Source: a bacterium
GTDB taxonomy: Bacteria > Auribacterota > UBA3054
NCBI GenBank assembly: GCA_017650925.1
Contig: JAGCDY010000108.1
Coordinates: 1-43,517, forward strand
Direction: 5' to 3'
Length of the DNA: 43,517 nt
Under the pieces are notes generated by a model, which worked only from the letters and a program-made list of their open reading frames with translations, did not search any database and was not told where the DNA came from. The translations under genes were made by a program, and so were the position numbers. Below are positions 27,519 to 32,905 of the stretch, piece after piece. The number at the start of each line of letters is the position of its first letter. The first letter of the stretch is position 1.

Positions 27519-28061
27519 TTATTTGCTAAGGGGAAGTTTGCTTCTGAGCTTGTCCAGTTCCTCGTCGTACTGGCGGTTCAGCTCGTTGGTAACTTCCTTG
27601 GTGTAATCTTTGACGACTTTCTGGTCGAGGTAAAGGATGGCTTTCAGGTCGAGCATCAGGGAGACGTTGTCCCTGGAGCCAATTTTCTCGATGATGGCGC
27701 GGATCTTGGAGGCGATCCTTTCCATATCGTGGCTGTGCTGGGCGGTGATCTCTTCGGTCGCCTGCTCCTTGAAGCGTTCGATGCGGTCGAAGTCCTTGGC
27801 GTACTGCTCCCTCAGAGCCGCGCTTTTCTCGGCGGAAAGGGCGGTGATCTGGGCTTCCAGCTTGTCAAGCTGGGCGGTCATCTGGGAGATCTCCTCCGTC
27901 CTGAGGTCGCGTTTGGTCAGGGCTTTCCTCTCGCATTCCTTGAACTCTTTGCTGCCCTGCAGAACGTCCTCGGTGTTGACGTAGGCGAAGCTGATGCCGA
28001 GGCAGTTTATGGCGGCGGCGGATAAGACAAAAGCTAAAAATATCTGTTTTTTCATGTTCAT
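27519..28061 (-). CDS. skp: OmpH/Skp-family periplasmic chaperone, second copy
   Basis: Skp/OmpH proteins are trimeric periplasmic chaperones that carry unfolded outer-membrane proteins to the BAM complex. The 180 residues have a signal peptide (MNMKKQIFLAFVLSAAAINCLG), then FAYVNTEDVLQGSKEFKECE, the typical start of the family, and a long charged coiled coil (about 45-110) forming the tentacle. The C-terminal part returns to the body with LDLKAILYLDQKVVKDYT. It overlaps the upstream paralogue by 4 bases. The two share only moderate identity, mostly in the body. The family is confident; functional identity to Skp is inferred. Confidence 0.85.
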   Translation of the reverse strand: MNMKKQIFLAFVLSAAAINCLGISFAYVNTEDVLQGSKEFKECERKALTKRDLRTEEISQMTAQLDKLEAQITALSAEKSAALREQYAKDFDRIERFKEQATEEITAQHSHDMERIASKIRAIIEKIGSRDNVSLMLDLKAILYLDQKVVKDYTKEVTNELNRQYDEELDKLRSKLPLSK

Positions 28062-28609
28062 TTCACGCGGTTCGGGGTCTTAAGCAGGCGTTCTTTCTCT
28101 TTGGCGTAAGCCTCGTTCAGTTTCAGAACGACGTCGTCGGTGAGGTCCTTCATCTCAGAGCGGTCGAGATAGACGATGGCTTTCAAATCGATTATGAGGG
28201 TGTACTTGCCGTCTTTGCCAATGTCCTCGATGACGGCTTTCAGCTTGTTGGCGATCCTGTTGAGGTCGACCGAGCGCTGTTCCCTAAGCGATTTGTCGGT
28301 GTCCTCGGCGAAGCGGCTGGCTCTCGCGATCAGGGCCTGGTAGTTGGCCTCCTCCTGCTGGCGCTTGGCGTCGGACAGGATCTTGAGCTTGTCGCCCAGA
28401 GCGTCGATCTCGCTGGTCATTTTTCTCAGCTCTTCCTCTTTCTCGTCCTGGATGTCGAGCAGCGCCAAGGAGCAGTCTTTGTATTCCTTGCTGTTATTAA
28501 GCGCCGTCTCCGTATCCACGTAGGCGATCTTCGGGGCTTTCACGTCGGAACCGAAAGCCCAAACGGGGAGCGCGAGGGCAAGGATCATTATAAGCGATCT
28601 AACCGGCAT
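28058..28609 (-). CDS. skp: OmpH/Skp-family periplasmic chaperone, first copy
   Basis: First gene of the envelope operon. The 183 residues begin with signal peptide MPVRSLIMILALALPVWAFG, followed by KIAYVDTETALNNSKEYKD, the strand-helix start of OmpH/Skp proteins, a long charged coiled coil (about 50-115), and the closing body segment IDLKAIVYLDRSEMKDLTDD, which is nearly the same as in the neighbouring copy (LDLKAILYLDQKVVKDYT). Two adjacent copies might form mixed trimers. No bamA is seen upstream, unlike the usual bamA-skp-lpxD order. An extended -10 promoter lies 48-57 bases upstream. Confidence 0.85.
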   Translation of the reverse strand: MPVRSLIMILALALPVWAFGSDVKAPKIAYVDTETALNNSKEYKDCSLALLDIQDEKEEELRKMTSEIDALGDKLKILSDAKRQQEEANYQALIARASRFAEDTDKSLREQRSVDLNRIANKLKAVIEDIGKDGKYTLIIDLKAIVYLDRSEMKDLTDDVVLKLNEAYAKEKERLLKTPNRVK

Positions 28610-28699: not shown

Positions 28700-28728
28700 C
28701 TGAAAGCAAGGGCGATTTTTGCTATAAT
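28700..28728 (+). promoter_or_regulatory. Promoter of the DUF6754 membrane operon
   Basis: CTGAAA at 28700-28705, 17 bases, then TGCTATAAT at 28720-28728 (TATAAT at 28723-28728). The ATG follows at 28755 with GGAGAAAG between. It is divergent from the skp-lpx promoter. Confidence 0.65.
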
Positions 28729-28754: not shown

Positions 28755-29525
28755 ATGGATCACGCGACGTTACCCATAATAATCTTTATTCTGCTCTTTT
28801 CCGGCTTCATCATTACCATGATCATGCTGACGAAGCGCGGCAAAGAAGTCTTTTTGCGCCCCATCAACGGCCTTAAGGTCATTGACGACGCGATCGGCAG
28901 AGCCGCGGAGGAGGACAGGCCCATCATGTTCAATCTGGGCTTCGACGACCTCTCCGTCAACCTCTTCTGCTCGCTGGCCGTCATGGGCTACGTCGTAAGG
29001 AAAGCCGCGAAACTCTCGATGCCGGTCTACGTGCCTCTGGCCCAGCCTCTGGCCTACGCCATGGCGGAAGAGTTCTGGAAGGACGGCTACGCCGCCATGG
29101 GAAAAGAGGGCATGTTCGCGGTCGAGGACTGTTTGAGGTATATGTCGAGCAACCAGTCCGCCCTGGGAGCCGGCATCGCCGGCTGGATAAAACGCGACCA
29201 TGTGGGGGCCAACTTCATGTTCGGCACCTACGGCTTCGAATCGATGATGCTGGCGGAAGCCGGCCAGCAGGCCGGGGCCTTCCAGATCGCCTGCACGCCG
29301 AGCTTTTACCAGGTGCCATTCTTCATGGTCTCCTGCGACTACACCGTTTTCGGCGAGGAATTCTACGCCGCGGGCGCCTACTTCAACAGGGATCCCGTGC
29401 TGACGGGAAGTTTGGTCGGCCAGGACTACTCGAAACTTGTCCTGCTGATACTTATAGTTTTGGGAAGCCTCCTTCTGACGATCTTCCAGAAAACCGATTA
29501 TCTGAGACTTCTTCTGCAGTGGTGA
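28755..29525 (+). CDS. DUF6754-type membrane protein
   Basis: A 256-residue membrane protein that I recognise as the DUF6754 type, of unknown function. A transmembrane helix at about 6-26 is followed by basic residues (TKRGKEVFLRPINGL), a soluble domain of about 190 residues with GRAAEEDRPIMFNLG, CSLAVMGYVVRKAA, LAQPLAYAMAEE, GANFMFGTYGFESMMLAEAG and FFMVSCDYTVFGEEFYAAGAYF, then a second transmembrane helix at about 228-245. The soluble core is the most conserved part of the family as I know it, and is compatible with a Rossmann-like or ligand-binding fold, but that is a guess. It is the first of four tightly spaced membrane-protein genes. Confidence 0.8.
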   Translation: MDHATLPIIIFILLFSGFIITMIMLTKRGKEVFLRPINGLKVIDDAIGRAAEEDRPIMFNLGFDDLSVNLFCSLAVMGYVVRKAAKLSMPVYVPLAQPLAYAMAEEFWKDGYAAMGKEGMFAVEDCLRYMSSNQSALGAGIAGWIKRDHVGANFMFGTYGFESMMLAEAGQQAGAFQIACTPSFYQVPFFMVSCDYTVFGEEFYAAGAYFNRDPVLTGSLVGQDYSKLVLLILIVLGSLLLTIFQKTDYLRLLLQW

Positions 29526-29531
29526 CCTGAT

Positions 29532-31172
29532 ATGAGCAAACGCAATATACTTAAGATAATCGCTTTCGTAGTCGGACTGTATTTCTTCTTGGAATACATT
29601 CTTCCGGAGAAGGTCGGCGGCGAATTCGACTCCTACGAAGTGGGATGCCCCGTCACTGTGGAGAGAAGCGGCAAGAAGCTGCAGTTCTACGTCGGGAATT
29701 ACTATAAGGGCCGCGGCATAATCGGCCGCATGGTGAAGAGCTCCGGAAAATGGGTGAAGGATGCCAAGCCCTGCCTTCAGCGCTCACTCTTTTTGAAATT
29801 CGACCAGTACGGCCTCACGGAACCGGACGCCGTTTCCGCGCCGGAGGGGCTCACGCTTCTGTATCTCGGCCAGAACGAGAAGGAGCCGGTTCTGTGCTAC
29901 GCCGTCAGCGAGGACGACGGACAGACTTTCAGGAAAAAGGGCCCGGTCGTCATTTCCACCAACGAGGTCTTCAAAACTTTCGAGAACGCGCCCAACGGCC
30001 AGATACCAGACCGCATAAAGAGTTTCGCCGCGGACTTCAGGAACGGCCTCTGGGAGGTCTACCTTTTCACCATGACCTACCGCGTCTGGCGCGCCGAAGG
30101 ACCGGACCTCAAGCATTTGAGTCTGGAGGCCGCGCCCATCGTCTCCTCGACGCTGACGGAAAAATCGCCCAACTCTTTCGATGTCTATTCCGAAGGCGGT
30201 CAGCCGGTTCTGGTCTACGTGATGGACAGGGAGATCCTGGAGTTCAGGAGATCAGGGAACGATTGGGAAAGCAAGAGCTGGAAAGCCCCCAAGGGCAACG
30301 GCACGAACGACACCGTTTACGCCGGAGGCAGGATGGATGTCGGCGAGGGCGTTCTTTACCTTGGCACCAAAAAGATGCAGAAAGGCCGTCCCATCGATTC
30401 TCCCTACGAGACGCAGCTGGCCTCCGTCGCTTTGCGCGACAGGGGCGACGGCACCCCGCTGGCTCCCGAGATGTCGGTCTACAAGAAAGTCGGGGCCTCG
30501 CCGAGGCCGACGTATCTTTCCTACGGCACCGAATGGGCGGGGAAATTCCTGACGGTGGTCGGCTCTTTCGCGATCTTCATCGCCATGATCAATTTGATGC
30601 TTTTCCACGGCAAGAAGATCTACCAGAGCGCCCTCAATTACAACGCGCCCGCGGGAGAGGATAAGCTTCCCGGCGGCGGCGCGCCCATGAGAAACTTCAT
30701 AAAGAACGCCGGCTACAGCGCGGTCTTCCTCATTTTCCTGGCCGTCATGATCGTCTGCGCCTGGAAAGGCCAGACCGACGAGGCCAAGGGCACCGTCTGG
30801 AAGACCTCCTTCGACTTCCTTTTCAACGCCATCCAACTCCCTATGGGCAGCGCGGTCTTCTCGATGATCACCTTCTATATGATTAGCGCGGCCTACCGCT
30901 CCTTCAAAGTTAGGAGCCTGGAGGCGGGCTTCCTTATGGCGGCGGCGATAGTCTGCATGGTCGGACAGATGCCGATCGGCGAGCTTCTGGCCTCGCTCGT
31001 TCCGGAAAGCTGGAAGCTTCTGCAGCTGCCCTGGCTCTCAGGGAAACTTCTCAGCGTTCTTAACGCGGCGGCCTACCGCGCGGTGCTGATAGGAACCTTG
31101 ATAGGCAGCGTAGCCATATCACTGCGCATTTGGCTCGGACTTGATAACAGCGTGTATTCATCGGTGGATTAA
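29532..31172 (+). CDS. Membrane protein with external beta-propeller-like domain
   Basis: A 546-residue protein, second in the DUF6754 operon. One N-terminal transmembrane helix (about 6-24) leads into an exported domain of about 300 residues with repeated beta-strand blades and an Asp-box-like motif SEDDGQTF (126-133), as in sialidase-type propellers. I see no catalytic residues of a sialidase. The C-terminal 210 residues hold about five transmembrane helices (near 338-358, 394-411, 430-455, 465-490 and 508-535). The gene starts 6 bases after the preceding stop. It might present a sensing or binding module outside the cell while anchoring the complex in the membrane. Function unknown. Confidence 0.72.
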   Translation: MSKRNILKIIAFVVGLYFFLEYILPEKVGGEFDSYEVGCPVTVERSGKKLQFYVGNYYKGRGIIGRMVKSSGKWVKDAKPCLQRSLFLKFDQYGLTEPDAVSAPEGLTLLYLGQNEKEPVLCYAVSEDDGQTFRKKGPVVISTNEVFKTFENAPNGQIPDRIKSFAADFRNGLWEVYLFTMTYRVWRAEGPDLKHLSLEAAPIVSSTLTEKSPNSFDVYSEGGQPVLVYVMDREILEFRRSGNDWESKSWKAPKGNGTNDTVYAGGRMDVGEGVLYLGTKKMQKGRPIDSPYETQLASVALRDRGDGTPLAPEMSVYKKVGASPRPTYLSYGTEWAGKFLTVVGSFAIFIAMINLMLFHGKKIYQSALNYNAPAGEDKLPGGGAPMRNFIKNAGYSAVFLIFLAVMIVCAWKGQTDEAKGTVWKTSFDFLFNAIQLPMGSAVFSMITFYMISAAYRSFKVRSLEAGFLMAAAIVCMVGQMPIGELLASLVPESWKLLQLPWLSGKLLSVLNAAAYRAVLIGTLIGSVAISLRIWLGLDNSVYSSVD

Positions 31173-31174
31173 GC

Positions 31175-32056
31175 ATGACGGAAGAAAATAAAAATCGCTC
31201 TTTCTGGGACCGCGTGCAGTTCTGCGACCCGAGGATACTCTACGCGCTTTTCGCGGTGGTCGTCATCGTTTTTGAGATGGTTCAAGTCAAGATGCCGGTG
31301 CCCAATCCCGTCTGGGTCGGAAAGCTCTACGACAGGATAGAGAATCTGCCGCCGGACAAGGCGGTCCTGATAGACTGCGACTACGGCGCCGGCAACCGCG
31401 GGGAATGCGAGGGCCAGTTCAAGGCCGTCATCCAGCATCTCTTTTCGAGGAACATAAAGTTCATGGTCGTGACCTGGACGACGAACGTCGAGGGCCAGAA
31501 GCTGGGCCGCCAGGTGCTGGACGAGGTCGCCAAGAAAATGAACAAGGTTGACGGCGAGGACTACGTCATGTTCCAGGCCATCGTCAACGCCGGCGGCGTG
31601 ACGCTGCAAAGCCTGGCCAAGGACATCCACGGCTTCGTCGTCAAGGACATCAACGGCCGCGACCTGGGGGACATCCCCATGATGAAGAATTTCAGGACCA
31701 TCGCGGACGTTTCCTTAATCTACCGCGTGGCCTATTCCTGGGGCGGCGTGCCCTGGATCGGCTTCGTGCAGTCCGTTTACGGAACGCCTCTGGCGGCGGG
31801 CTCCGCCGGCATCGAGAGCTCTACGGCTTATCCGTATCTCGACAGCGGTCAGCTCTGCGGGCTCTTGGCCGGCGCGGCCGGCGCGGCGGCCTACGAGAAG
31901 CGCGTCATGGAGGCCGGGATAACGCCGGAGACGGGCATCGGGACCAAGACCGTAAGCGTGCAGTCGTTCGCGACGCTTTTCGTGGTCGTTTCCATTCTCA
32001 TCAGCAATTTCGCCATGTTCATGTCCAAGTGGCAGGGCAAAAGGGCCAGGACATAA
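31175..32056 (+). CDS. Bitopic membrane protein with periplasmic alpha/beta domain, DUF6754 partner
   Basis: A 293-residue protein of unknown function. Transmembrane helices at about 20-36 and 264-283 flank a domain of about 220 residues. It contains KAVLIDCDYGAGNRGECEGQ, VIQHLFSRNIKFMVVTWTT, DIPMMKNFRTIADVSLIYRV and SGQLCGLLAGAAGAAAYE. From memory, proteins with the same pattern (a 'D-x-D-Y-G' strand, then late 'YPYxxSGQxxGLLxGxxGAAxYE') accompany DUF6754 proteins in other phyla. The fold looks like an alternating alpha/beta domain. The gene starts 2 bases after the previous stop. It has the same two-ended membrane anchoring as the DUF6754 protein, suggesting direct pairing. Confidence 0.72.
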   Translation: MTEENKNRSFWDRVQFCDPRILYALFAVVVIVFEMVQVKMPVPNPVWVGKLYDRIENLPPDKAVLIDCDYGAGNRGECEGQFKAVIQHLFSRNIKFMVVTWTTNVEGQKLGRQVLDEVAKKMNKVDGEDYVMFQAIVNAGGVTLQSLAKDIHGFVVKDINGRDLGDIPMMKNFRTIADVSLIYRVAYSWGGVPWIGFVQSVYGTPLAAGSAGIESSTAYPYLDSGQLCGLLAGAAGAAAYEKRVMEAGITPETGIGTKTVSVQSFATLFVVVSILISNFAMFMSKWQGKRART

Positions 32057-32068
32057 GGAGGGCTGATC

Positions 32069-32905
32069 GTGCAAAAATCAAAGGGTAAGATATTCTGGAT
32101 CGTTCTGGGAGTTTTGGTGCTTGCCATCGCTGTCTGGGGAGAGTTCAGAGCGGGGAGCATCCCGCAGGTGGCCGCACGAGTGAAAGACCTCGACCTTCCC
32201 AACCTGGGCGTCTATAGGCTCCAGACCTGGATCGCCGCGCTCTCCTGCATCGCGGTCTACAGTTTCCTCTTCAAGGAGAACCCCTTCTACCGCTTCTTCG
32301 AGCACGCCCTCCTTGGCTGCGCCACGGGCTACAGCTGCGCCGTCGTCATGCGCCAGAACCTTTACAGCCAGTGGCTCGTGCCCATAAAGAAAGCGATCGT
32401 CAACGTCGCTCAGAACGGCTGGACGAGTTCCGACGCCGCCACCATAGCGCTGATACTGGCCGGCGTCATCGGCCTTCTCTGGTACTTCCAGTACAGCAAG
32501 AAATATTTCTGGGTCAGCCGCATCGCCATGTGCATATCTCTGGGCGCCGGCGCGGGACTTGCCTTCAAGGACACTTTCAACCAGCTTATTCCCCAGATCA
32601 CGGGCACCTTCAAGAACGTCTGTCCCTCCGAATACGTGATGCCCGGCGCCACTTTGATGGAACGTTTCTACATGGGCTGCGAGAACTTCATCTTCGTAAT
32701 AGGCACGGTCTCCGTCCTGATGTACTTCTTCTTCGCCTTCGGCAACAAGAACCCGATCGTCAAGGGCAGTTCGAAAATAGGGCGCTGGTACCTCATGATA
32801 GCGCTTGGCGCCTTCTTTGGAAACACCTTCATGTCACGCCTTTCCGCCCTAATTGAGCGCGTCCACTTCCTGATGGCGGAGTGGTTGCTAATTAGTCAGA
32901 TGTAG
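32069..32905 (+). CDS. Polytopic membrane protein, fourth gene of the DUF6754 operon
   Basis: A 278-residue hydrophobic protein with about seven predicted transmembrane helices and short loops; no family is recognised with certainty. The start is GTG at 32069, supported by an excellent AAGGAGGG at 32055-32062 that overlaps the previous stop codon. Helices are visible at about 9-25, 50-66, 74-92, 120-138, 145-165, 205-225 and 240-262. The small external segment GSIPQVAARVKDLDLPNLGVYRLQTWI precedes helix 2 and hints at a membrane-surface helix. It is likely the channel or scaffold of the complex, by inference from topology only. A new promoter begins right after its stop codon. Confidence 0.7.
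   Translation: MQKSKGKIFWIVLGVLVLAIAVWGEFRAGSIPQVAARVKDLDLPNLGVYRLQTWIAALSCIAVYSFLFKENPFYRFFEHALLGCATGYSCAVVMRQNLYSQWLVPIKKAIVNVAQNGWTSSDAATIALILAGVIGLLWYFQYSKKYFWVSRIAMCISLGAGAGLAFKDTFNQLIPQITGTFKNVCPSEYVMPGATLMERFYMGCENFIFVIGTVSVLMYFFFAFGNKNPIVKGSSKIGRWYLMIALGAFFGNTFMSRLSALIERVHFLMAEWLLISQM

Follow-up and report, generated by a model that had tools for sequence, protein, structure and literature searches.

Four adjacent genes, here called g1 to g4, form one conserved unit in the window (the whole 43,517-nucleotide stretch of DNA analyzed, which makes up all of contig 102 in a 1.98-Mb draft genome, ~90% complete, of a rumen bacterium). Together with partner genes encoding a MutL-family protein, a barrel protein, and small helical proteins, this cassette very likely makes up a single system. 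The further proposal that g1 to g4 are the membrane core of an ATP-driven transmembrane complex containing MutL, the barrel-sandwich/KOW protein, and a small helical protein, with the mechanism set out below, is plausible but tentative. The membrane system has about seven components; its gene order is fixed across many mostly uncultured phyla among the loci listed, and three of its four core proteins belong to no catalogued family. A set of scattered hypothetical proteins becomes one testable system with respect to its partners, its sidedness, and its three paralogous copies in one genome, and an ATP-driven machine, if true, would represent a novel type of energy-coupled complex in bacteria.

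Gene layout and flanking genes

The four genes are codirectional and are separated by only 6, 2, and 12 bases according to their ORF coordinates (Table 1). The extended −10 promoter noted ahead of g1 in the first-pass annotation was also found, with TG preceding TATAAT, as a consensus match only; the promoter scan alone is weak, since 5 promoter-like sites were seen against 1.8 ± 1.7 expected. The same operon, with a g1 protein 98% identical, is present in 'Bacterium isolate RGIG7788' from water-buffalo reticulum. An OmpH/Skp-like tandem duplicate, consisting of adjacent and mutually related genes of 180 and 183 aa (27519-28609, minus strand), adjoins lpxD-like and lpxC-like genes in the window.

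A role in envelope maintenance or stress sensing had been suggested from the neighboring lipid A genes and STAS-phosphatase pair. These flanks are not conserved, the STAS-phosphatase pair being absent beside the cassette of a member of the genus (G005, L031) and both groups of genes being absent from the flanks of the cassette in G008 (L033); hence, these neighbors were rejected as functional evidence.

Table 1. Positions of the cassette features in the window and of the MutL operon on contig C53
Feature	Position	Strand	Basis
Candidate promoter CTGAAA-17-TATAAT, extended −10 (TG)	28700-28728	+	Consensus match only
g1, DUF6754 protein	28755-29525	+	ORF, 256 aa
g2, window-lineage form: predicted external propeller-like domain fused to five-helix membrane domain	29532-31172	+	ORF, 546 aa
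g2, N-terminal extracytoplasmic propeller-like domain (predicted), residues 25-338	29604-30545	+	Homologue comparison
g2, conserved membrane domain, residues 339-546	30546-31169	+	HMM match; common to all cassettes
g3, alpha/beta domain between two helices	31175-32056	+	ORF, 293 aa
g4, polytopic membrane protein	32069-32905	+	ORF, 278 aa
C53 MutL operon (G000:C53), small helical gene			
C53 MutL operon, MutL	L145:6993-8795		
C53 MutL operon, barrel protein	L145:8799-9908		

Conservation of the cassette

A scan of the genome collection for DUF6754 yielded at least 583 stretches, with 563 true relatives among these, and the best 80 were kept; HMMs built from the g1 to g4 proteins were run over these loci. 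Among the matches listed, g2, g3, and g4 lay downstream of DUF6754 on the same strand and in the same order for 87 of the 92 genes that had ≥3 kb of downstream sequence, the five exceptions comprising one permuted arrangement (g2-g3-g4-g1), one solitary gene, and three genes that are second copies located after a complete cassette. According to record titles, which can be wrong for metagenome bins, the cassette loci span at least 13 phylum-level lineages, mostly candidate phyla, with the labels WOR-3, Armatimonadota, Zixi-, Cloacimona-, Fermenti-, Eisen-, and Latescibacteria, Edwards-, Stahl-, and Poribacteria, Binatota, Bdellovibrionota, Mcinerneyibacteriota, and Bacillota.

As these loci had been picked by g1, independent searches were performed for g1 and g4. 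Of 121 Armatimonadota genomes, 102 had both genes, 1 had only g1, 2 had only g4, and 16 had neither (Fisher p 7e-17), while the corresponding numbers for 44 genomes from the same phylum as the window were 13, 0, 2, and 29 (Fisher p 2e-9), both p values being inflated by the relatedness of the genomes. Both g4-only genomes of the latter phylum are partial bins, with 64% and 74% completeness. The cassette is present in about 85% of the sampled Armatimonadota, and g1 and g4 are mostly present or absent together. The four-gene unit put forward from the window is borne out by this conservation of order and co-occurrence across phyla, with the proviso that co-occurrence by itself does not prove a complex.

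The second cassette of the genus encodes g3 and g4 as a single, naturally fused protein. A joint alignment of this fusion with the unfused g3 and g4 proteins was not used for folding, as the g4 rows fell on the g3 half. Four copies of g3, three ahead of g4 and one behind it, are found in the first type of cassette in the genus (L029:12025-17066, L042:1-8441, and L151). Next comes a gene for a large protein that looks secreted and contains BACON and HYDIN-type Ig domains. Two or three complete cassettes occur in tandem in Zixibacteria-type and related genomes (L063, L069, L070, and L116), those of L063 being located behind one MutL-barrel pair.

Families, folds, and conserved residues

The g1 protein is a full-length member of DUF6754 (PF20539), scoring 242.9 bits against a curated cutoff of 27 and covering profile positions 10 to 250 of 257, while g2, g3, and g4 had no family match above cutoff in Pfam or NCBIfam. 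No transporter family, ABC families included, was matched above cutoff by g1 to g4 in these databases. A ZIP transporter reading of g4 (E 9e-4, 19 bits) was rejected as lying far under the cutoff of 35.1. The topologies originally assigned were confirmed, namely, one helix at either end of g1 and of g3, about five helices following an external domain in g2, and a polytopic g4.

The alpha/beta domains of g1 (about residues 28 to 225, between the N-terminal and C-terminal helices) and g3 (about residues 40 to 264) were both modeled by AlphaFold as alternating alpha/beta structures of the Rossmann type between two membrane helices, with pLDDT values of 92.8 and 94.9, respectively. Neither model matched a PDB fold at E ≤ 1e-3. 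The better fold matches, all weak (E > 1e-3), were to a universal stress protein (USP) and SIS folds for g1 and to MoCo-carrier/LOG folds for g3 (TM-score by target of 0.52 to 0.54), the latter model also being weakly similar to glycosyltransferase Rossmannoids; for g3, the best probability, MoCo-carrier/LOG included, reached 0.99. PDB sequence searches with profiles of g1, g3, g4, MutL, and the barrel protein detected nothing at the limits set, and a search with g2 gave one irrelevant match (E 0.26).

A number of charged or polar residues are invariant in g1 (R35, R49, E52, E168, Q177, Q186, D195, E202, D224, and K227), and N71, G83, Y219-F220, and R257 are invariant in g4. The retention of the g1 residues and of N71 and R257 of g4 points to conserved functional sites in both proteins.

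Predicted membrane sidedness of g1 and g3

Charge bias was used as an indicator of membrane orientation. The mean net charge was +3.8 after the first helix of g1 (83 homologues) and, for g3, was +1.6 before the first helix and +3.2 after the last (72 homologues). In most other phyla, g1 carries a signal-peptide-like stretch and an FN3-like domain ahead of its first helix, in agreement with a cytoplasmic location of the g1 domain. From charge bias and the FN3 extensions only, the g1 domain is predicted to be cytoplasmic and the g3 domain extracytoplasmic. The two soluble domains had initially been thought to be paired, a suggestion that conflicts with these predicted locations on opposite sides of the membrane.

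Both AlphaFold models have six strands and helices in identical order. Profile comparison gave no significant indication of homology between g1 and g3 (score of 22.0, reached by 10 of 60 block-shuffled controls) or between g2 and g4 (score of 16.8, reached by 27 of 60); hence, inverted paralogy of g1 and g3 is only an idea, the profiles lending it no support over shuffled controls. In Cloacimonadota and Mcinerneyibacteriota (L077, L085, L099, L121, and L124), about 650 to 900 extra residues precede the DUF6754 domain of g1.

The outer domain of g2

The HMM for the g2 membrane domain matches the window protein and about 100 homologues. An extension of >150 aa is restricted to this genus, G008, G011 (where it is cut by a contig end), and two of the four cassettes of G026; the window lineage has added a propeller-like domain to g2. 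This domain had been described as an Asp-box propeller. One clear Asp-box-like motif, SEDDGQTF, is present, although the window protein gave no significant Pfam match. As the g2 outer domain of a relative (L037) gives matches to BNR_2 (9e-5) and GH32N (5e-4), both subthreshold, the g2 outer domain is predicted to be a five-bladed propeller, an assignment that is likely but not proven. Its weak likeness is to five-bladed propellers of the GH32 type and to BNR repeats; it differs from those proteins in that the match is below cutoff and the domain is fused to a membrane bundle.

MutL, barrel, and small helical partners

At many loci, a gene for a MutL-family protein (PF13941, ASKHA ATPase type, about 600 to 630 aa) is located immediately before g1 or behind g4. 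Its partner is a barrel protein of 370 to 380 aa with subthreshold barrel-sandwich matches and, by eye, a KOW-like end. Upstream, a helical protein of roughly 100 aa is encoded in 23 of the loci listed and a two-helix protein in 21. MutL was detected in 47 of 50 cassette-bearing genomes; in Armatimonadota, 102 of 103 g1-positive genomes contained it versus 7 of 18 g1-negative genomes, and, in the window's own phylum, the proportions were 13 of 13 versus 2 of 31. The idea of one complex, as put forward in the first-pass annotation, survives insofar as the four-protein membrane set is conserved; the MutL ATPase, the barrel-sandwich protein, and the small helical partners had been missed.

The cognate MutL is predicted from its motifs to be an ASKHA ATPase, with those for phosphate 1 (DCGSTTTK at 15), phosphate 2 (DIGGATTD at 289), and adenosine (GSGGVLSH at 423) all intact. 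The sole PHROGs match was a weak one of MutL to a partition-protein family (E 3e-5). The MutL-barrel pair may have a further role, as a single MutL accompanies the four cassettes of G026 and MutL occurs without g1 in some Armatimonadota. Five long MutL-barrel pairs were found in one Bacillota genome, Fermentithermobacillus (L134, L136, L137, and L138); in the stretches read, none adjoined the g1-g4 cassette of that genome, and partners other than the cassette may thus exist for the pair.

Three cassettes and three MutL lineages in the window genome

The window genome contains three cassettes, namely, that of the window, one on contig C44, and a third that contig ends divide between C123 and C38. 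A MutL-barrel pair is located behind the C44 cassette and in front of the C123/C38 cassette, while no MutL adjoins the window cassette. Three MutL genes are present in this genome, the third being on C53 with no cassette alongside (Table 1). In G008 and G011, MutL is directly behind a cassette of the window type. In a maximum-likelihood tree, the C53 MutL (L145) clustered with the MutLs of these two genomes (L033 and L147) with 100/100 support, and a g1 tree exhibited the same three cassette clades as MutL. Each of the three cassettes of the genus has its own MutL lineage. The C53 clade and the matching g1 clades indicate that the C53 MutL operon very probably serves the window cassette, the parts being separate in this genus and together in relatives.

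The neighbors of the C53 MutL are the small helical gene, the barrel gene, YfhO, PIG-L, glucosamine-6-phosphate isomerase, and unmatched proteins, the PIG-L deacetylase and isomerase genes lying downstream of the MutL-barrel operon (L145:9973-13086). In G008, a fused BadF-type ATPase and 2-hydroxyglutaryl-CoA dehydratase D component is encoded upstream of the cassette (L033:7083-9383).

Relation to known systems and possible functions

The four-gene set is not known to have a described function, and the literature searched, with most subscription papers and all preprints outside its scope, contained no reference to DUF6754, PF20539, or PF13941. DUF6754 and MutL are already catalogued as single families, and the combined system appears to be unnamed in the literature found. 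The Pfam entry for DUF6754 describes one domain of unknown function, to which are added here the g2 to g4 partners, the link to MutL and the barrel protein, and the FN3-helix-domain-helix layout. In type IV pili, the PilM-PilN-PilO proteins combine an actin-like (ASKHA) cytoplasmic ATPase with membrane proteins. The trait of a cytoplasmic ASKHA protein with membrane proteins is shared, by analogy only, and g1 to g4 had no match to pilus, PilN/PilO, or secretion components in Pfam or NCBIfam. The PADLOC defense models gave no matches. The system fits none of the known kinds tested, whether a catalogued transporter, a glutamate mutase accessory, a pilus platform, or a defense system.

In the proposed mechanism, MutL and the barrel protein would dock on the cytoplasmic domain of g1, and ATP turnover by MutL in the cytoplasm would act through the barrel protein on this domain. 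The resulting change would be relayed across a membrane core of g1, g2, and g4 to the g3 domain on the outside. An envelope or glycan ligand would be bound by the external FN3 domain in other phyla or by the g2 propeller in the window lineage. The whole set may thus act as an ATP-driven transmembrane machine for transport, assembly, or force transfer, with the window copy a putative duplicated and specialized cassette whose MutL operon would have moved to another locus. A more specific form of this proposal, an energy-transducing envelope machine with an actin/Hsp70-fold ATPase, two Rossmann-like domains on opposite sides of the membrane that are possibly ancient inverted paralogues, and exchangeable outer modules, is speculative but worth considering.

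The same components could instead constitute a sensory or signaling complex in which FN3 or the propeller binds a ligand and signals to the Rossmann-like domain of g1, MutL being a nucleotide-dependent switch and not a motor. The outer modules do differ by lineage in the manner of ligand modules (FN3, the g2 propeller, and the extensions of 650 to 900 aa), and the weak similarity of the g1 model to USP and SIS folds would be in keeping with signaling, yet the cassette has no linked output domain, be it a kinase, a cyclase, an HTH, or another type, and two polytopic proteins plus an outer alpha/beta domain exceed the needs of a simple receptor, making this reading unlikely.

A membrane enzyme complex for glycan or lipid synthesis or modification, in which the two Rossmannoid domains would be the subunits that bind substrates or cofactors, is a rather poor prospect. 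It would accommodate the weak resemblances of g3 to MoCo-carrier/LOG and glycosyltransferase Rossmannoids and of the propeller to GH32/BNR types, as well as the position of the C53 MutL operon near the PIG-L and glucosamine-6-phosphate isomerase genes, but these amino-sugar neighbors are confined to this genus, no catalytic family was matched, and two polytopic proteins plus an ATPase would be unusual for such enzymes. Unlike the MoCo-carrier/LOG (SLOG-like) proteins that supply its best-probability fold matches, g3 is membrane anchored at both ends and predicted to be extracytoplasmic.

MutL takes its name from the glutamate mutase cluster, and its match to PF13941 (377 bits) would agree with a system that assists cobalamin-dependent mutases as an accessory or chaperone. 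The cognate protein has the ASKHA phosphate and adenosine motifs of that family but is longer than the MutL of glutamate mutase clusters and is partnered with the barrel-sandwich/KOW protein and a membrane cassette, not with mutase subunits. As the MutLs here are long forms (about 600 to 630 aa, versus 450 Pfam positions and 486 aa for a short-form relative, L135) and no recognized mutase genes were found beside the cassettes or the cognate MutL, a mutase accessory is highly improbable. The chance sharing of an operon by four functionally unrelated membrane genes is scarcely credible given the conservation of order and co-loss across many phyla and the natural g3-g4 fusion in the second cassette of the genus.
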